Virus record (IMG/VR): IMGVR_UViG_3300034072_000758
Span: 310,001-374,000 of that record
From: a virus
Reading direction: 5' to 3' (one strand)
DNA: 64,000 nt
The notes beneath the pieces are model-generated. The model was not told the DNA's origin. It was given only the letters and a program-made list of their open reading frames with translations, and did no database searches. Position 1 is the stretch's first letter, and each line of letters begins with the position of its first letter. Below are positions 35,579 through 43,766 of the stretch, in pieces. The position numbers and the translations under genes were made by a program.

Positions 35579-35579
35579 G

Positions 35580-35652
35580 TGCCGGTTGCAGGAATCGAAC
35601 CCGCGACATCTTGTTTACAAAACAAGTGCTCTACCAACTGAGCTAAACCGGC
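35580..35652 (-). tRNA. tRNA-Thr(UGU)
   Basis: Acceptor GCCGGTT pairs fully, anticodon arm CTTGT-TTTGTAA-ACAAG (anticodon TGT), T-arm GCGGG-TTCGATT-CCTGC (one G-U). No encoded CCA. Confidence 0.93.
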
Positions 35653-36223: not shown

Positions 36224-37387
36224 TTAGTTGAACTCGGTGGCGTTTTTACGCAGGATGTAGTCTGGGGAGACCCACTTCCCGATTTTCCGGCCACGCAGGA
36301 GCGACCGGCCTTCGGTCACCGTCTTGATAACGATGCCTTCCCGAACGTGGATGCCTGACAGCGTATCCTTGCCGTCGCGCACGGCTTCCAGTGCCGCCAG
36401 ATCGTATTGGCCACGATACAGGACCGGGGCGACCGGAATACCCAGCTTCGCCGCCAGAGCTTCGAAAACCTCATAAGATACGAACTCGTACCCGATTTGG
36501 ATGTCGAAGATGTAGAGCGTGGGCTTCTTGAAGCCGTAGGTCAGGTCTTGGATACCTTCGCCGAAGATTTCACCGAAGACACGCACCGGCTGACCGTACT
36601 CGTCCGAGATAGCCTTGATCAGTTCACCGAAGCCGTTTTCGACCAGCGGCTTGAGCATCCGAACATAGACGTTCTTGAGCGCGTTGGCTTCGTTATCCTT
36701 GAAGACCAGCCCTTGTGCCGCCATACCCTTCGAGCCGACATACAGATTGCCGTCGAAGAACAGTTCGTCGTTATTCAGGCCGGGGACATAACCGATCTGA
36801 ACGTGAGTACCGTGAAGCTTTTCAGTCGCCACGACTTCATCCGACGAATCGAAAGTATCCGGGTAATTCTGAACGCTTTCGAAATCGTACTTGTGGGTAT
36901 TGCCCGAAATATTACAAACATCGCCCGCAAAGTTCGTAGGGACGGGTGGTTCGTACTTGGTGATACCAAGGAACTCGGCCACGTTGTCGCCTTCCAGAAC
37001 GGTCAGAATATGTTCGCCGTTCGGGCTTTCGATCACGTCCGAAACTTCGCCGCATCCCATATCGTATTTCGAAATGGGATACAGGACGCCTTGCGAGAAG
37101 ATGCCACGCAGACGCTTGGCCTTGACACGATCACCCTTCTTACCGGCGAGGAAGCCGACATTCTTTTCATGGTCCCAGAAGTCCATGAAGCGCAGAACAT
37201 CTTCGGGAAGAACGGCGGCTTCGGGAATGTAGGCTACGAGATCGCCCGCCTGATAGCGGTGAGAGCCATCTTCCAGCTTACCAGAAATACACAGAAAGCC
37301 CTTGATTTGGATGATCGACAGACGATCCGCATCCGGGTGATGATCGACAGAGAGAATCTTGGTCACTTCGACCGCAAAACTTGACAT
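36224..37387 (-). CDS. RNA ligase with N-terminal OB domain (Rnl5-like)
   Basis: 387 aa. Residues 1-150 form an OB-type domain (PDADRLSIIQIKGFL, YQAGDLVAYIPEAAVLP, RLRGIFSQGVLYPIS). The nucleotidyltransferase domain follows with motif I EVVATEKLHGTHVQI (active Lys in KLHGT), a motif IIIa-like VRVFGEIFGEG, motif IV EGIVIKT and a motif V-like RKIGKW. This domain order is that of the Deinococcus-type Rnl5 family. It joins RNA 3'-OH and 5'-phosphate ends. Placed by the tRNA array, a role in mending cut tRNAs is plausible but inferred. Confidence 0.88.
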   Translation of the reverse strand: MSSFAVEVTKILSVDHHPDADRLSIIQIKGFLCISGKLEDGSHRYQAGDLVAYIPEAAVLPEDVLRFMDFWDHEKNVGFLAGKKGDRVKAKRLRGIFSQGVLYPISKYDMGCGEVSDVIESPNGEHILTVLEGDNVAEFLGITKYEPPVPTNFAGDVCNISGNTHKYDFESVQNYPDTFDSSDEVVATEKLHGTHVQIGYVPGLNNDELFFDGNLYVGSKGMAAQGLVFKDNEANALKNVYVRMLKPLVENGFGELIKAISDEYGQPVRVFGEIFGEGIQDLTYGFKKPTLYIFDIQIGYEFVSYEVFEALAAKLGIPVAPVLYRGQYDLAALEAVRDGKDTLSGIHVREGIVIKTVTEGRSLLRGRKIGKWVSPDYILRKNATEFN

Positions 37388-38613: not shown

Positions 38614-38632
38614 CGGATTTCTTGGAAATTGG

Positions 38633-38703
38633 AGCGGGTAGCGAGAATCGAACTCGCACGATCAGCATGGCAAGCTGACAGGCTACCACTACATCATACC
38701 CGC
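38633..38703 (-). tRNA. tRNA-Gly(GCC)
   Basis: Acceptor GCGGGTA/TACCCGC, anticodon loop TTGCCAT (GCC), T-arm GCGAG-TTCGATT-CTCGC. Last tRNA of the minus-strand array. Confidence 0.93.
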
Positions 38704-38759
38704 GTAGCGGGGAATGCTTCTGTTGCCAAGTGCATCCCCAAAACTCCGGTTAGCGACAA

Positions 38760-38798
38760 TTAAGCCGCCAGAGCCAAGACTACGTTATCGTTGTCAGT
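38760..38798 (-). other. Start-codon-less frame resembling a tmRNA tag
   Basis: Reading minus from 38795 the codons give DNDNVVLALAA then TAA, preceded by ACT and, two codons before that, by an in-frame stop; no ATG exists. The form NDN...ALAA-stop is that of an ssrA degradation tag. A TAAATA late element at 38810-38805 predicts transcription from 38799, one base upstream of ACT. No second tRNA-like half is visible beside it. Confidence 0.45.
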
Positions 38799-38804
38799 TG
38801 ATTA

Positions 38805-38810
38805 TATTTA
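38805..38810 (-). promoter_or_regulatory. Late-type promoter element TAAATA before the tag-like frame and tRNA-Gly
   Basis: Minus strand GATAAATATAATC; expected start 38799. Confidence 0.45.
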
Positions 38811-38842
38811 TCATAGACAAATATCAAACGCAACTAAAAAGT

Positions 38843-39214
38843 CTAATTTCTTTGACCACCATCAAGAATCAGATGAAAGAAAAAATCCTCCAACTCTTCT
38901 TCGGATTTCCAATTACGAATCTTATAACTAACGATGTCCCAATTATCCCAATCTTCGCTGGTTCGGTACAGCTTACCGTAACTTTGCCATTCTCCGCCCT
39001 TATGAGGCCCATAGGTGATGCTGATCACAAAGAACTCGTGGACAGTAAAAGTAAACCGGGTAAGACTGTGAATGTGCTCGTATATAGGTTTCTTGGAAGT
39101 CTTATGGTATCGGGCCATAATACGATATTCTTTATCGTCTACTGACAATAGATACCCATTTGGATACACATTCGTTTCCAATAGAATACCAGCAATGGCC
39201 TTGGTAATAATCAT
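38843..39214 (-). CDS. Hypothetical protein (123 aa)
   Basis: MIITKAIAGILLETNVYPNG; aromatic, beta-rich, with an acidic C-terminus (SEEELEDFFF). ATGA overlap with the upstream gene. Confidence 0.65.
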   Translation of the reverse strand: MIITKAIAGILLETNVYPNGYLLSVDDKEYRIMARYHKTSKKPIYEHIHSLTRFTFTVHEFFVISITYGPHKGGEWQSYGKLYRTSEDWDNWDIVSYKIRNWKSEEELEDFFFHLILDGGQRN

Positions 39215-39633
39215 ACCAACATTCTAGCAGTAACTAGAAAATCGTCAAGACCTTCATAGCTCTTGGTAGTTGTGATCATACAAATTCTTCTAACGAGTTC
39301 ACGATGATCCGTAAGAATAATGTATAGGGCGTCTTTTCCGAGGTTCGCCCACTCCATGTGTAAATGGATTGAGAATTTGAATTTACCCGGAGAACTAATA
39401 TCCAATCGCCCGGTATATTTGTGATTATATGGTTTGATGTAATTCATCACCAAATCACCATTTGGCGTCTTTAAGACCCGGCGTCTGGAATCACGATCTC
39501 GAATTACATTACCGTATGGAGAGACGGGTAGTAAATCATTGTACAATTTGATCATGGCGCGGGCCAAATCAATATCACCGGGGTTCAACTCGAATAACTC
39601 ATCACCATCTTTATCCAGTTGATTGATACTCAT
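39211..39633 (-). CDS. Hypothetical protein (140 aa)
   Basis: MSINQLDKDGDELFELNPGD. Lies between tRNA-Ser(GCU) and the previous gene, in the tRNA operon. No domain recognised. Confidence 0.65.
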   Translation of the reverse strand: MSINQLDKDGDELFELNPGDIDLARAMIKLYNDLLPVSPYGNVIRDRDSRRRVLKTPNGDLVMNYIKPYNHKYTGRLDISSPGKFKFSIHLHMEWANLGKDALYIILTDHRELVRRICMITTTKSYEGLDDFLVTARMLV

Positions 39634-39648
39634 AGTAAACCCCTCTGG

Positions 39649-39735
39649 CGGAAGCGGTGGGATTCGAACCCACGGAGGACTTTCACCCTCGCAGCTTTAG
39701 CAAAGCTGTGCTATCGACCACTCAGCCACGCTTCC
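39649..39735 (-). tRNA. tRNA-Ser(GCU)
   Basis: Acceptor GGAAGCG/CGCTTCC, anticodon arm CAGCT-TTGCTAA-AGCTG (GCT), long variable arm, T-arm GTGGG-TTCGAAT-CCCAC, discriminator G. Confidence 0.95.
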
Positions 39736-39737
39736 AT

Positions 39738-39926
39738 TTAAAAGTCGTTATTCAACGACTTCTGTTCTGTTGTCTCATACTTGTAGTTCTTTTTCAACCA
39801 GTCCCGACATATTTTCATATGCCAGTCCCGTTGATTATACGCCTTATCACTACTCAGTTCCACATAATCACTTGCGATATATTGGATAAGCTGTTCGGCA
39901 GTCAATTGATCTGTGTACTCACTCAT
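39738..39926 (-). CDS. Small hypothetical protein (62 aa), predicted leaderless mRNA
   Basis: MSEYTDQLTAEQLIQYIASD. No Shine-Dalgarno; the A of the ATG is exactly 7 bases after the -10 box of the promoter at 39933-39961. It lies between two tRNA genes of the array. Confidence 0.6.
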   Translation of the reverse strand: MSEYTDQLTAEQLIQYIASDYVELSSDKAYNQRDWHMKICRDWLKKNYKYETTEQKSLNNDF

Positions 39927-39932
39927 GGACGT

Positions 39933-39961
39933 ATCGTATCATGTTAAGTCAGATTTTTCAA
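39933..39961 (-). promoter_or_regulatory. Sigma70-like promoter with leaderless spacing
   Basis: Minus strand TTGAAA (39961-39956), 17-base spacer, TACGAT (39938-39933). Confidence 0.55.
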
Positions 39962-40160
39962 TTTTTAATATAAGCAGTATTTTTTCATCATCGGTTAAGC
40001 TCTCAGCCATACTAATTTCCTCATATACTGCTGGACAACCGATACGAAGGGACGTTACTTCATCAAGCATAAGTTCGAACGTAAGTGTACCTCGCTCAAT
40101 TCCACTTACGTAGACTTGAATTAACATACACCAAGCTTTGAATATTTGCTCATTAGTCAT
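39939..40160 (-). CDS. Hypothetical protein (73 aa) starting 2 bases from a tRNA 3' end
   Basis: MTNEQIFKAWCMLIQVYVSG. The ATG at 40160 is separated from the tRNA-Cys discriminator only by CC, and there is no Shine-Dalgarno. Processing of the tRNA 3' end would leave an mRNA of nearly leaderless form. Confidence 0.55.
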   Translation of the reverse strand: MTNEQIFKAWCMLIQVYVSGIERGTLTFELMLDEVTSLRIGCPAVYEEISMAESLTDDEKILLILKIEKSDLT

Positions 40161-40162
40161 GG

Positions 40163-40234
40163 AGTTCCCGATAGGATTCGAACCTACATAAGACGGGGTT
40201 GCAATCCGCCGCATAGCCTTTCTGCCACAGGAAC
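40163..40234 (-). tRNA. tRNA-Cys(GCA)
   Basis: Acceptor GTTCCTG/CGGGAAC, anticodon loop TTGCAAC (GCA), T-arm GTAGG-TTCGAAT-CCTAT. The anticodon stem has one weak pair. Confidence 0.88.
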
Positions 40235-40253
40235 ATAACCGGATTATACCGGG

Positions 40254-40342
40254 CGGACAATGGGGGATTCGAACCCCCGGAGGACATTACTGCCCTCACT
40301 CGCTTTCCAAGCGAGCGCGATAGACCGCTCTGCCAACTGTCC
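40254..40342 (-). tRNA. tRNA-Ser(GGA)
   Basis: Acceptor GGACAGT/ATTGTCC, anticodon arm CTCGC-TTGGAAA-GCGAG (GGA), long variable arm, T-arm GGGGG-TTCGAAT-CCCCC, discriminator G. Confidence 0.95.
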
Positions 40343-40600
40343 TTACTTTTGCCATATATGAGACTGTTCATCAACCTTTACCGGAAAGGTATGAACAGTC
40401 GTGCGAAAAAGAAAGTCCGATCCCATCTGACCAACAAGTCGATCAGTAAATGCTTCTGGGGTATAGTGATCGTTTACCCCAGCTAGGATCGCCGTCTTCA
40501 ATATGGCTTCGCATTCGTTGCTATCATCAAACTTATCCATATCGACAAACCATAAACGGCTATTCCGATCATTATAAGTTTCAACAACAGCATATATCAT
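40343..40600 (-). CDS. Hypothetical protein (85 aa)
   Basis: MIYAVVETYNDRNSRLWFVD; beta-rich start. ATGA overlap with the upstream Nudix gene; its stop abuts tRNA-Ser(GGA). Unknown function. Confidence 0.7.
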   Translation of the reverse strand: MIYAVVETYNDRNSRLWFVDMDKFDDSNECEAILKTAILAGVNDHYTPEAFTDRLVGQMGSDFLFRTTVHTFPVKVDEQSHIWQK

Positions 40601-41097
40601 TTTTGCCTTTCGAACCAGCTTTTAACCACATCGGTATGAGACCCGAAGCAAAGTTCTTCCGGTTCCAAAATGGCTCGGATTGCTGGCACTTCATTGGTTG
40701 GAACGAAGTCTTTCAAAACTTGTGCCATCGGAATAGGCGTCTTAGCTTCGCAAAAGGCCATCATATTACGACCGTTGTTGTATGAACTTATCAGACGAAC
40801 ATCAACCGGGTCAATAACCAGTCCAGTTTCTTCCACAAGCTCACGTACCGCAGCATGTTCGATAGAAGCGTCAGAAAGCTCTTGGAAGCCACCTACGAGC
40901 GCCCAGCCGTCCTTACAAGGTTGAATGCCTCGTTGGGCTACCAGAAGGCCCACAGAGCCTAATGGGAACGATACCGGTAAGAGAAGTACAGCAACCCCGA
41001 TTGGGTTGATGAATGTGATGTTGCCGCAGCTTGAACAAGCCTTGGGGTACTCAGTCGCGGTATGCTCGGTGCCGCAGAATTTACAGAACTTGTCCAT
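40597..41097 (-). CDS. Zinc-ribbon Nudix hydrolase (NudC-like)
   Basis: 166 aa. The N-terminal CKFCGTEH...CSSCGN zinc ribbon precedes a Nudix domain with box GGFQELSDASIEHAAVRELV followed by EETGL. The order resembles NudC-type NAD(H) pyrophosphatases, although the N-terminal NudC domain is absent. Substrates could be ADP-ribose, NAD(H) or NAD caps on RNA. It sits inside the tRNA operon between two tRNA-Ser genes. Confidence 0.8.
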   Translation of the reverse strand: MDKFCKFCGTEHTATEYPKACSSCGNITFINPIGVAVLLLPVSFPLGSVGLLVAQRGIQPCKDGWALVGGFQELSDASIEHAAVRELVEETGLVIDPVDVRLISSYNNGRNMMAFCEAKTPIPMAQVLKDFVPTNEVPAIRAILEPEELCFGSHTDVVKSWFERQK

Positions 41098-41122
41098 TTA
41101 TATCGCCAGAATTTTTACGGAG

Positions 41123-41207
41123 CGGAAGCGGTGGGATTCGAACCCACGGAACCTTACGGTTCGGAAGTTTTCAAGACTTCTGGGATAAACCTCTCCCCCA
41201 CGCTTCC
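41123..41207 (-). tRNA. tRNA-Ser(UGA)
   Basis: Acceptor GGAAGCG/CGCTTCC, anticodon arm GAAGT-CTTGAAA-ACTTC (TGA), long variable arm CGAACCGTAAGGTTC, T-arm GTGGG-TTCGAAT-CCCAC. Confidence 0.95.
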
Positions 41208-41214
41208 TTAAATA

Positions 41215-41421
41215 TTAGAAATGTCGTCTTCTGACTTTTCTTACTATAGAATCAACCGCTTTTTCCTCAGTCGGTTGGCCATTCACTATTATAACTACGG
41301 TGTCAGCCTGTCCACCTAAGTCAGTGACCGCCTCTTCCGCTTCGTATAATGCTTCTTTTGATGTTTCGGCGTTAATTTTAGATTTCGAACGAAAGACGTA
41401 TTCTACTTCAAATTCAGCCAT
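41215..41421 (-). CDS. Small hypothetical protein (68 aa)
   Basis: MAEFEVEYVFRSKSKINAET, preceded by GAAGGTCTACGTGTT. The beta-alpha-beta pattern and basic C-terminus (VRKVRRRHF) suggest a small nucleic-acid-binding fold. Lies between tRNA-Ser genes. Confidence 0.65.
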   Translation of the reverse strand: MAEFEVEYVFRSKSKINAETSKEALYEAEEAVTDLGGQADTVVIIVNGQPTEEKAVDSIVRKVRRRHF

Positions 41422-41499
41422 AACACGTAGACCTTCAACACGATTATTACTCTTTTTACGTCTAACACGATGGTAAAGACTGGTCAATTTATTTTGTGG

Positions 41500-41586
41500 C
41501 GGATGGTGAGGGATTTGAACCCCCGGTTCCTTTCGGAACGCCAGTTTTCGAAACTGGTGCAATCAGCCGGACTCTGCCAACCATCC
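41500..41586 (-). tRNA. tRNA-Ser(CGA)
   Basis: Acceptor GGATGGT/ACCATCC, anticodon arm CCAGT-TTCGAAA-ACTGG (CGA), long variable arm CGTTCCGAAAGGAAC. Confidence 0.93.
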
Positions 41587-41587
41587 G

Positions 41588-41662
41588 TGGACTATGATGG
41601 AATCGAACCATCGCTATCGTTGAGTTACAACGACGACCTATCCTTTACAGGTCTGATAGCCC
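41588..41662 (-). tRNA. tRNA with apparent anticodon AAC (Val), identity uncertain
   Basis: Acceptor GGGCTAT/ATAGTCC (one G-U), D-stem GACC/GGTC, anticodon arm TCGTT-GTAACTC-AACGA, variable TAGC, T-arm GATGG-TTCGATT-CCATC. The loop reads AAC at 34-36. G32 could pair with C38, which would shrink the loop. Only 1 base separates it from tRNA-Ser(CGA). Confidence 0.7.
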
Positions 41663-41676
41663 TTAATTTTAATTGG

Positions 41677-41762
41677 GGGACGGGTGGGATTCGAACCCAC
41701 GGAACCTTCTACAAGACCCTCCCGCGTCAATCGGGACACCTTAAGCCACTCAGTCACCGTCC
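41677..41762 (-). tRNA. Second Ser-type tRNA, anticodon read as UGA
   Basis: Long variable arm and T-arm GTGGG-TTCGAAT-CCCAC. Anticodon arm TCCCG-ATTGACG-CGGGA, loop with TGA at 34-36 but C37 and G38, which is unusual. The acceptor GGACGG/CCGTCC pairs 6 bases and the seventh is mismatched. Discriminator reads C rather than the Ser-typical G. Confidence 0.65.
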
Positions 41763-41767
41763 ATCAA

Positions 41768-41977
41768 TTAAACCGTCTGTTCTTCGATCAAAGACATATG
41801 CTTCCTGATCCAACGCATAAAGAACAATCCTTTATCCTTGGTCAAGAAGCGGGCAGTCCCGCAATCGGAGATCGGAACCGGAAACTCAAACCCATCTTCG
41901 CAGCGATAGATCAAGTTGCCGTCCTGATAGTGAACGAAGTTTACTTCGCCTTTTACTCTTGTTTTAATGTCAGCCAT
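41768..41977 (-). CDS. Small hypothetical protein (69 aa)
   Basis: MADIKTRVKGEVNFVHYQDG, with AAGGGTAAAGTG before ATG 41977. A beta-rich small protein between two tRNA genes. Confidence 0.7.
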   Translation of the reverse strand: MADIKTRVKGEVNFVHYQDGNLIYRCEDGFEFPVPISDCGTARFLTKDKGLFFMRWIRKHMSLIEEQTV

Positions 41978-42003
41978 CACTTTACCCTTTCATTCAGTGA
42001 TGG

Positions 42004-42084
42004 TGTGTCGTGATGGATTCGAACCACCGTGCCTTTCGGATGGGGGTTACAACCCCACGCAATCAACCGCTCTGCCAACGACAC
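42004..42084 (-). tRNA. tRNA-Tyr(GUA), copy 1
   Basis: Acceptor GTGTCGT/ACGACAC, anticodon loop TTGTAAC (GTA) on a GTGGGG/CCCCAT-type stem, type II variable arm ATCCGAAAGGCAC, discriminator A. Confidence 0.92.
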
Positions 42085-42085
42085 A

Positions 42086-42230
42086 TAAAGGATTAATCGA
42101 CCCCTCGCCTTCGGGCTTTTACCGCTGGTCATTAGGCTACCGGAGAGGAGTTTCCGTAGCCTCAGCTTACTATGTGCTCACCCCGTTTGGAGGCATACCC
42201 CTACTAGGTTAAAGTAAGCACTTCATTTGG
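42086..42230 (-). ncRNA. Structured spacer between the two tRNA-Tyr genes
   Basis: No gene. On the minus strand GCTTACT pairs at distance with AGTAAGC, AGGCTAC/CGGA is followed by its complement around GGAG, and GCC-CGAA-GGC forms a tight hairpin. It is longer than the other tRNA spacers and could be a processing or regulatory element. Confidence 0.4.
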
Positions 42231-42312
42231 TGTATGGTGCTGGATTCGAACCAGCGCGCCTTTCGGAACAGATTTACAGTCTGTCGGTATCGACCAACTC
42301 ACCCAACCATAC
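42231..42312 (-). tRNA. tRNA-Tyr(GUA), copy 2
   Basis: Acceptor GTATGGT/ACCATAC, anticodon arm ACAGA-CTGTAAA-TCTGT (GTA), type II variable arm TCCGAAAGGCGC, T-arm GCTGG-TTCGAAT-CCAGC. It differs in stems from copy 1. Confidence 0.93.
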
Positions 42313-42313
42313 G

Positions 42314-42385
42314 TACTCGGTAATGGAATCGAACCATTATCTTCGGAGCCACAATCCGACGCTCTTACCGTTGAGCTAACCAAGC
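42314..42385 (-). tRNA. tRNA with anticodon GUG (His), lacking G-1 and C73
   Basis: Anticodon arm TCGGA-TTGTGGC-TCCGA (GTG), T-arm AATGG-TTCGATT-CCATT, acceptor GCTTGGT/ACCGAGT with two G-U pairs. The discriminator is A and no G-1 is encoded, so it lacks the usual His identity elements and may be charged poorly or differently. Confidence 0.75.
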
Positions 42386-42467
42386 ATAGTTATAAGATTC
42401 ACAATGTAAAAGAACATGTCTCATACACGATACAAGAAGAGGCTTCTTGCTTCATTAATGAGACATT
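42386..42467 (-). other. Hairpin between the two GUG tRNAs
   Basis: ATGTCTCAT pairs with ATGAGACAT and encloses CAAGAAG-AGG-CTTCTTG (42417-42466), a strong two-part hairpin with no T-tract. Probably a processing or stability structure. Confidence 0.5.
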
Positions 42468-42544
42468 TGGGGTGACCAACGGGATTCGAACCCGCGCTTG
42501 GAGATTCACAGTCTCTCGTGCTAACCGCTAACACTATGGCCACC
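42468..42544 (-). tRNA. tRNA-His(GUG) with encoded CCA
   Basis: Acceptor GTGGCCA/TGGTCAC, preceded by an encoded G at -1, with discriminator C followed by CCA, the full set of His identity features. Anticodon loop CTGTGAA (GTG). It starts 10 bases downstream of the histidyl-tRNA synthetase-like gene, in the same transcript. Confidence 0.93.
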
Positions 42545-42554
42545 ATAAAGATCG

Positions 42555-43167
42555 CTACAGAGCTAACATCAGTCGATCAACTCCAATCGCCCAACCAATA
42601 CCTTCTGAGTATCGGCCACCACCGGCAATCTGTTTTTGTGCTCCAAGTTTGGAACACTCTGCTTCGAAACCTTCTTCAACATAATAGGTCAAACCGCGCT
42701 TAACCGAGTCCGTGAATGAGTATTCGACGCCAAGCTTGTCTAAACACAACTTCAAAAGCCTCTTGGCCTCTTCTGTCGAATTGTCAACTTCACCGAGGAT
42801 TTCCACACCAAATTGGGTGAACTCTCGATAACGACCAGCTTGAGGTCGTTCGTAGCGATAGCACCGGGAGACGTAGAAAATCCTCTTGGACTTACTTGTC
42901 TTTGACCAGTTATCCCGCCAAAGTTCTTGGACTAAGCCGGTGACTTCGGGGATCAAACATACCGGACGGTTTGCCTTATCCTCGAAAGCCCACATTTGAT
43001 TGATGATCTCAGACCCCGCCTTGTCGATGAACGTTTGTTGTTCCCACAAGGCTGGAAGAATCACTTCCTCAAATCCAGCTTCAATGAAGAGACCCCCTAA
43101 GAGCCTCGATTACACGGACGTAGGACTTAGCTTCGTCCCCTTCCAAAATTCTCGTACCTCGTAACAT
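42555..43167 (-). CDS. Minimal histidyl-tRNA synthetase-like protein, needs +1 frameshift
   Basis: Frame 0 from ATG 43167 (after TTTGGAGAATGGA) gives MLRGTRILEGDEAKSYVRVI then ...EALRGSLH and a TGA at 43083-43081. Shifting +1 at CTT-AGG-G (43101-43095) continues as LFIEAGFEEVILPALWEQQT to 42555, ~203 residues. Class II HisRS features: RGTR start, motif 2 CYRYERPQAGRYREFTQFG, the histidine motif RGLTYY (usually RGLDYY), and motif 3 GWAIGVDRLMLAL. The insertion domain and C-terminal anticodon-binding domain are absent, so it is half normal length. It is adjacent to tRNA-His. Alternatives: a HisZ-like regulator, a sequencing indel in the G5 run, or a recent pseudogene. Confidence 0.78.
43095..43101 (-). 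promoter_or_regulatory. Candidate +1 frameshift site CTT AGG G
   Basis: In the HisRS gene the frame must change between ...GAG GCT CTT and GGG GGT CTC. CTT can re-pair as TTA one base on, as at the yeast Ty1 site CUU-AGG-C. AGG is normally a rare codon, which would favour pausing. Confidence 0.5.
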
Positions 43168-43184
43168 TCCATTCTCCAAAAACA

Positions 43185-43207
43185 AAAAACCCGCCAAGAC
43201 TGGCGGG
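43185..43207 (-). terminator. Attenuator terminator T2
   Basis: Minus strand CCCGCCA-GTCT-TGGCGGG (43207-43190... read 43207 to 43190) then TTTTTTG. It lies 18 bases upstream of the HisRS start. Its 5' arm can pair with the 3' arm of T1. Confidence 0.9.
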
Positions 43208-43211
43208 CATT

Positions 43212-43239
43212 AAAAAACCCGCCTAATCGGAGCGGGTTT
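43212..43239 (-). terminator. Attenuator terminator T1
   Basis: Minus strand AAACCCGC-(9)-GCGGGTTT, 8 perfect pairs (43239-43232 with 43222-43215), then Ts. Its 5' arm AAACCCGC can alternatively pair with GTGGGTTT in the last codons of the leader peptide. Confidence 0.9.
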
Positions 43240-43277
43240 AGAAGCTTCTATGATTTTCAGTTAATCATATAGTCGCG

Positions 43278-43340
43278 TCAAAACCCACCCTTGCTAGAGT
43301 GCGAATAAGAGCAGCTATGTGAATACGACATGAAAGTCAT
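43278..43340 (-). CDS. Leader peptide rich in Ser, Tyr, His and Cys (20 aa)
   Basis: MTFMSYSHSCSYSHSSKGGF, with AAGGAACTGCTACA before the ATG. Codons 5-16 are TCG TAT TCA CAT AGC TGC / TCT TAT TCG CAC TCT AGC: all four kinds of Ser codon box, both His codons, Tyr and Cys, and nothing else. The downstream array supplies Ser (CGA, UGA, GCU, GGA), Tyr (GUA twice), His (GUG) and Cys (GCA) tRNAs that read every one of them. The last codons (GGT GGG TTT) overlap an antiterminator arm. This is the layout of an amino-acid operon attenuator, with stalling predicted when any of these charged tRNAs is scarce. Confidence 0.82.
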   Translation of the reverse strand: MTFMSYSHSCSYSHSSKGGF

Positions 43341-43420
43341 TGTAGCAGTTCCTTTGTTACCAGCGGGGGTGTGATAGGGCGCACCCTATAACGACGACTT
43401 TTTCCCTCGCCATCTTTTTC

Positions 43421-43450
43421 TATTTAGCATCTTTCGCAAAAACGTGTCAA
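43421..43450 (-). promoter_or_regulatory. Promoter of the leader-HisRS-tRNA operon
   Basis: Minus strand TTGACA (43450-43445), 18-base spacer, TAAATA (43426-43421). Predicted start near 43414, giving a ~75-base lead before the peptide. Confidence 0.75.
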
Positions 43451-43463
43451 TTTATTTTTTAAA

Positions 43464-43766
43464 TTAATTTTTGCGGGCGTTGTAGACGAATCTCCCAACC
43501 TCTTTATTATTATGAGAAGCGATAACAATGGTCGTCGCAAACGTGTCAATATCGGAGTTATCATCAACCGGTGGCTGAGACATTGTTAACTTATATCCAT
43601 ATTTTTTAGATAAATCGACAAACTCTTTCAATTGCTGACTAGAATTTCGTCCAGCAATACCACCAAAATCAAGACGCAGATAATTATTACTTGGGTTGAT
43701 GTCTTGAACCGAAGCCTCATTCAACACCATCTTGTTTTGAATTTCTCTATACCATTCGTTGTCCAT
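43464..43766 (-). CDS. Hypothetical protein (100 aa), predicted leaderless mRNA
   Basis: MDNEWYREIQNKMVLNEASV. No Shine-Dalgarno; TAAATA (43777-43772) ends exactly 6 bases before the A of the ATG. The promoter is divergent from that of the secreted nuclease. No domain recognised. Confidence 0.65.
   Translation of the reverse strand: MDNEWYREIQNKMVLNEASVQDINPSNNYLRLDFGGIAGRNSSQQLKEFVDLSKKYGYKLTMSQPPVDDNSDIDTFATTIVIASHNNKEVGRFVYNARKN

Follow-up and report, generated by a model that had tools for sequence, protein, structure and literature searches.

The stretch of DNA analysed here, referred to as the window, comprises 64,000 nucleotides, bases 310001-374000 within a virus record of 516,805 bases (IMG/VR record IMGVR_UViG_3300034072_000758), and its phage, as judged by the portal, the gp23-like capsid and the sheath, is a T4-type jumbo myovirus. 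The window contains, on the minus strand, an operon of transfer RNA (tRNA) genes in which a promoter, a short leader open reading frame (ORF) rich in Ser, Tyr, His and Cys codons and two terminators precede a gene for a histidyl-tRNA synthetase (HisRS)-like protein and the tRNA genes. Its features are as follows (window positions; tRNA genes called by ARAGORN).

43421..43450 (-): operon promoter, read from the sequence; TTGACA (43450-43445), 18-nt spacer, TAAATA (43426-43421)
43350..43355 (-): Shine-Dalgarno AAAGGA, read from the sequence, 9 nt upstream of the leader ATG
43278..43340 (-): leader peptide ORF MTFMSYSHSCSYSHSSKGGF, 20 codons, of which codons 5-16 (43328-43293) are the test codons
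43280..43289 (-): segment 2, one half of the antiterminator; GGTGGGTTTT, formed by the final codons of the leader and complementary to AAACCCGC in terminator 1
43212..43239 (-): terminator 1, AAACCCGC-loop-GCGGGTTT, then a T run
43184..43209 (-): terminator 2, GCCCGCCAGTCTTGGCGGGT, then TTTTTG
42555..43167 (-): HisRS-like class II synthetase core (Pfam PF13393), with a +1 frameshift inside
42468..42543 (-): tRNA-His (GTG)
42313..42385 (-): tRNA-His (GTG), second copy
42228..42312 (-): tRNA-Tyr (GTA)
42001..42084 (-): tRNA-Tyr (GTA), second copy
41675..41763 (-): tRNA-Ser (TGA), slightly under the Rfam cutoff
41587..41662 (-): tRNA-Val (AAC), weak (E = 8.5e-6); no Val test codon
41497..41586 (-): tRNA-Ser (CGA)
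41122..41207 (-): tRNA-Ser (TGA), second copy
40252..40342 (-): tRNA-Ser (GGA)
40160..40234 (-): tRNA-Cys (GCA)
39646..39735 (-): tRNA-Ser (GCT)
38630..38703 (-): tRNA-Gly (GCC), possible operon end; no Gly test codon

The leader reads ATG ACT TTC ATG TCG TAT TCA CAT AGC TGC TCT TAT TCG CAC TCT AGC AAG GGT GGG TTT TGA, and its codons 5-16, hereafter the test codons, specify Ser, Tyr, His and Cys exclusively. Promoter, leader and both terminators were found in the sequence where an initial annotation of the stretch had placed them. The operon carries, on one strand, two tRNAs for His, two for Tyr, two for Ser (UGA), one each for Ser (CGA, GGA and GCU), Cys (GCA) and Gly (GCC), and a weak one for Val (AAC). 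The tRNAs named in the initial annotation are thus all present, but its list omitted the second tRNA-His, the second tRNA-Ser (UGA), tRNA-Val and tRNA-Gly. Its claim that the array supplies a tRNA able to read each test codon holds for 12 of the 12 codons.

The genome of the window's phage (G000) has 59 tRNA matches and four tRNA operons, each with its own leader. Besides the leader described above, MFALRLKLLRKWLRRPKGGTV precedes 14 tRNAs (Arg, Leu, Lys and Trp), MFAIREEREER precedes three tRNA-Glu, and MFAAVATMINIANQVDTDFDMAIAMPATQQPF... precedes tRNAs for Phe, Ile, Met, Gln, Asn, Pro, Asp, Thr, Val and Ala; the four leaders cover 19 amino acids, Gly alone being missing. Three related phages (G001-G003) have kept the tRNA grouping while their leader sequences have diverged, and the leaders of G001 jointly cover all 20 amino acids. 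A further phage, G004 (608 kb), partitions its tRNAs differently, and its leaders change to match: FSHQHSHH precedes the His tRNA, MFNALYPMPCYP the tRNAs for Tyr, Pro, Leu, Met and Cys, MSSLFNKRFWRRVR those for Phe, Leu, Trp, Arg and Lys, MNKNVTTTVVIITTV those for Ile, Thr and Val, MFKNLLQQLQL those for Gln and Leu, and DEREED those for Asp and Glu. The leaders of G011 fall into yet other groups (Ser; Val/Gly/Ala/Asp/Cys/Glu; Tyr/Leu/Phe; Pro/Gln/Met/Phe; Trp/His/Arg/Asn/Gln/Lys). More leaders were found in the AT-rich contig G012 and in the huge phages LR745206 and LR756502; among these, MTTMNLNMTMNLTLNVVNITLCNIR precedes tRNAs for Asn, Arg, Leu, Val, Ile, Thr and Met. Separate groupings are contributed by G004, by G011 and by LR745206/LR756502. 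A promoter of the layout TTGAC-N17/18-[AT]AAATA lies upstream of nearly all leaders of G000-G004, and a Shine-Dalgarno sequence is absent from the AT-rich leaders of G012, LR745206 and LR756502. In total, 38 leaders were identified in 12 phages, with a median length of 30 codons and a median distance of 118 nt between the leader stop codon and the first tRNA. The initial annotation had proposed, as a check, that leader amino acids should co-vary with tRNA content in relatives, and across these leaders they clearly do. The system thereby reaches far past the one operon noted in the initial annotation.

The matching of leaders to tRNAs was assessed statistically. Since the leaders had first been picked by eye or by score, the matching was retested with each region allowed to pick, for every tRNA set, whichever ORF fitted best among all ATG-initiated ORFs of 10-60 amino acids within 1 kb upstream of each operon. 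The leader was the best-matching ORF for its operon's tRNA set in 37 of the 38 regions. Among within-genome permutations, the true pairing of leaders with operons ranked 1/24, 1/24, 2/24, 1/24, 1/720, 2/120, 1/6 and 2/24, that is, first or second in all eight multi-leader genomes, and in an all-versus-all comparison the observed matching score was 136 against a mean of 66 (standard deviation 7). The match extends to the codons themselves, 462 of 490 codons for the listed amino acids being readable by the anticodons of the operon, against 433 +/- 6 with random synonyms. The regulatory codons are cognate to the operon's tRNAs, as in an attenuator.

Two cultured phages have the same layout, which can therefore be tested at the bench now. 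Gene 86 of Bacillus phage G (gp86), annotated without a function, reads MMKCSWFEFDTDFTDVFYCEYTFYSLYTFLD... and lies directly upstream of tRNAs for Cys, Asp, Phe, Tyr, Glu, Thr, Ser and Trp. In Agrobacterium phage Atu_ph07, an ORF with ...EIIAIERNVFVRAEAAMFWYPI... is found upstream of tRNAs for Ala, Arg, Phe, Pro, Ile, Tyr, Trp, Met and Glu; the paper describing this genome lists 33 tRNAs and mentions neither leaders nor attenuation. Atu_ph07 also has a tiny ORF, MSIYNGQPFVEE (L280 5195-5233), just upstream of tRNAs for Val, Pro, Gln and Phe, which could be a further leader, or else the end of a gene upstream.

An intrinsic terminator lies between leader and tRNAs for 24 of the 29 leaders first tested and for all nine added later. 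In most leaders a segment immediately downstream of the test codons (segment 2), an element that the initial annotation had left undescribed, is complementary to the terminator's 5' arm, with sequences that differ between phages. The pairing partners are GGTGGGTTT and AAACCCGC in the window, CCGGTTCCG and CGGAACCGG in Atu_ph07, and GAGGGTTTTGA and TCAAAACCCTC in LR756502, the last two phages having perfect helices of 9-11 bp. Over 28 leaders, the pairing of the segment with the terminator exceeded that of shuffled sequences (combined Fisher p about 4.7e-16), and each leader's own terminator was a better partner than swapped ones (0/50,000 when terminators were exchanged among leaders). For the window, the duplex of segment 2 with terminator 1 has an energy of -11.3 kcal/mol (p = 0.03 against dinucleotide shuffles). 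The RNA from position 43292 on, which would be free under a ribosome stalled at the test codons, is predicted to adopt the antiterminator fold (-24.5 kcal/mol), and the RNA past the leader stop codon the fold of terminator 1 (-18.7 kcal/mol). Thus, an antiterminator can form downstream of the regulatory codons and compete for the 5' arm of the terminator, as it does in known attenuators.

The initial annotation had read the locus as an attenuator, and this reading is supported by the matching of leaders to tRNAs, by the terminators and by the complementarity of segment 2 to the terminator arm. We consider it very probable, from these sequence features, that each such phage tRNA operon is under ribosome-mediated transcription attenuation and senses its own tRNAs. 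RNA polymerase would start at the operon promoter, and a ribosome would trail it into the short leader ORF. With all of the listed tRNAs charged, the ribosome would reach the end of the leader and cover or pass segment 2, and the terminator hairpin would halt transcription ahead of the tRNAs. Were any listed tRNA scarce, the ribosome would stall at the test codons, leaving segment 2 available for pairing with the terminator's 5' arm, and transcription would enter the tRNA genes. The leader would then act as an OR gate across one group of amino acids, and each operon would regulate its own tRNAs by negative feedback. Translation of the leader, a rise in tRNA output on shortage and the trigger are inferences of this model; the trigger is most likely the loss or shortage of tRNAs during infection, through host anticodon nucleases, host tRNA decay or high phage demand.

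Several observations weigh against this reading. A hairpin with a T run after it is missing from the Glu/Asp/Gly leaders G000c, G001c, G002c and G003c, G011e yielded no terminator, and G004f and LR745c have no convincing antiterminator helix. Taken singly, 13 of the 28 antiterminator tests miss p < 0.05 (phage G, 0.41; L003, 0.69; G001b, 0.58). The distance from segment 2 down to the stop codon exceeds 20 nt in some leaders, so that a ribosome halted at the stop would not itself cover the segment. A few tRNAs of an operon are absent from its leader, such as those for Val and Gly in the window, and there are operons without a leader (Gly/Met/Ala in G004 and Ile/Thr/Gln in G011). G000-G003 share ancestry and are therefore not four independent replicates.

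The same attenuators could instead signal amino-acid starvation or low charging, the phage responding with more tRNA and, in the window operon, HisRS. Charged tRNA is what the known leader-peptide attenuators sense, an uncharged tRNA looking the same to them as a missing one, and a HisRS-like gene within the operon fits a response to charging. However, the lack of an amino acid is not cured by adding tRNA, almost all of the operons contain tRNAs without a biosynthesis gene, and amino acids of unrelated pathways share a group, an arrangement poorly suited to starvation control. We therefore regard starvation as a rather unlikely signal, and tRNA loss as the more sensible trigger, because extra tRNA would not relieve starvation. 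It is still less probable that the leaders couple tRNA expression to the overall state of translation or the stage of infection, with their composition being secondary. Any leader ORF overlapping an antiterminator, as these do, is known to respond to general translation, but a general sensor would not need a composition that tracks the tRNA group even across differing partitions.

For the Glu/Asp/Gly group, and perhaps for others, the chances are about even that the leader switches Rho-dependent termination or the processing of the tRNA precursor rather than intrinsic termination. In G001c, G002c and G003c (L111, L117 and L130), the distal leader can form a long helix with the segment just ahead of the first tRNA, with no T run; only four of the 38 leaders are concerned, however, and a clear terminator is present in most of the others. 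A CCAG...CTGG hairpin adjoins the tRNA in these leaders of G001-G003, and their putative switch differs in structure from that of the other leaders. A last alternative, that chance or low-complexity ORFs were picked after the fact, has a negligible probability in our view: short ORFs are common and the initial picks were made by eye or score, but the free-choice permutation test still recovers the true assignments, control phages are negative (see below) and the antiterminator test does not depend on any match in composition.

No matching leader was found in the regions examined of T4, T5, KVP40, CBB, XacN1 and Phosso, or in those of jumbo phages with a single mixed tRNA array. Among isolates, Phosso alone has a close HisRS; it carries 59 tRNAs, mostly in one large array, and is leaderless in the parts read. 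The closest relatives identified by the major capsid protein, and those from a pattern search, either had one large mixed tRNA array or were phages already included here, and yielded no new leaders. Leader control of tRNA operons is thus limited to some phages. A T-box leader, with its Stem I, specifier loop and T-box antiterminator motif, was rejected, as positions 42900-43500 of the window gave no T-box match up to an E value of 1. Two Rfam models were matched below threshold, Trp_leader at 21.6 bits (gathering 41) and Phe_leader at 19.9 (gathering 55), a resemblance only.

The HisRS-like gene named in the initial annotation is real (Pfam PF13393, E = 6e-14; the match to NCBIfam hisS is below the cutoff), but it is split by a +1 frameshift of which the annotation made no mention. 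Frame 0 extends over 43167-43081 and the +1 frame continues down to 42555, for a product of about 203 amino acids after the shift; the shift site is AGGGGG-TCT-CTT-CAT-TGA at 43098-43081 (-). The split is kept in 94 of the 105 HisRS-like homologues examined, both phage and bacterial (window, L001-L103, L131, L246 and L251), which rules out a sequencing error, and the consensus of the site is GGAG(G)/GGGGG, 3 nt, [CG]TT and CA[TC], with the His codon in the A site. The gene is thus a candidate for programmed frameshifting at a His codon. The site resembles the +1 frameshift site of prfB (RF2) in its Shine-Dalgarno-like element, 3-nt spacer and CTT slip codon, whereas here the A site holds a His codon (CAT/CAC) instead of a stop and the gene is HisRS-like. 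Frameshifting could hypothetically yield the HisRS-like protein when charged tRNA-His is scarce; since the Phe-Ile/Thr residues encoded in the +1 frame in part dictate the His codon, a role for it as a sensor is put forward only as a hypothesis. In relatives there is no leader immediately upstream of the HisRS gene; the leader lies before the tRNA block. A wider view, in which huge phages have a genome-wide tRNA supply network that serves as an inducible counter-defence against anticodon nucleases, with the frameshift at a hungry His codon as a second sensor, seems to us as apt to be wrong as right.

The phage leaders share with the attenuators of amino-acid operons (trp, his, thr, leu, ilv and pheA) and of pheST a leader ORF with runs of regulatory codons, an antiterminator/terminator pair and genes downstream. 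Unlike those, they precede tRNA genes, list a group of amino acids rather than those of one pathway, divide the amino acids among several leaders per genome, and occur in bacteriophages. T-box leaders also attenuate transcription in response to the state of tRNA, often before synthetase genes, but T-box RNA binds uncharged tRNA directly and does not need translation. T4 RNA repair counters PrrC. Phage tRNAs that counter anticodon nucleases or retrons likewise replace host tRNAs lost to defence: the tRNA-Tyr of T5 counters retron-Eco7, a strong promoter being reported and attenuation unmentioned (PMC11555353), and mycobacteriophage tRNAs counter a tRNA-cutting defence, again with attenuation unmentioned (PMC10264068). 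The initial annotation knew of no phage tRNA array under translational attenuation, and we likewise found no description of phage tRNA operons under leader control in the open-access literature. Attenuation itself is known; what appears to be new is its proposed use on tRNA operons, in phages, with leaders that list groups and split the amino acids among them. If the reading is correct, these would be the first tRNA operons under leader-peptide control, as far as the open-access literature shows. The reason for the dozens of tRNAs in large phages has been a matter of debate for decades; tRNA shortage in infection would be something that the phage gauges and responds to, and the leaders would reveal which amino acids belong to each sensor. 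They could also be used as ready-made reporters for the loss of chosen groups of tRNAs.

A few other features of the window and of the related genomes were observed. A Nudix hydrolase gene sits between tRNAs of the operon (40597-41097, -), and a gene for an RNA ligase (Pfam PF09414, PHROG 968; 36224-37387, -) is located downstream of the operon on the same strand; it fits RNA repair, possibly of tRNA, although this is no proof. Further along, tRNA-Thr (TGT) (35579-35652, -) has a TTGACG-N17-GATAAAT promoter of its own at about 35770-35740 and no obvious leader ORF. Suppressor-like tRNAs with a CTA anticodon, designated Pyl by ARAGORN, are found in several phages (L108 4792-4865, L001 10355-10511 and L265 17043-17195), and phage G has a suppressor-like tRNA with a TTA anticodon (L287 9933-10006).

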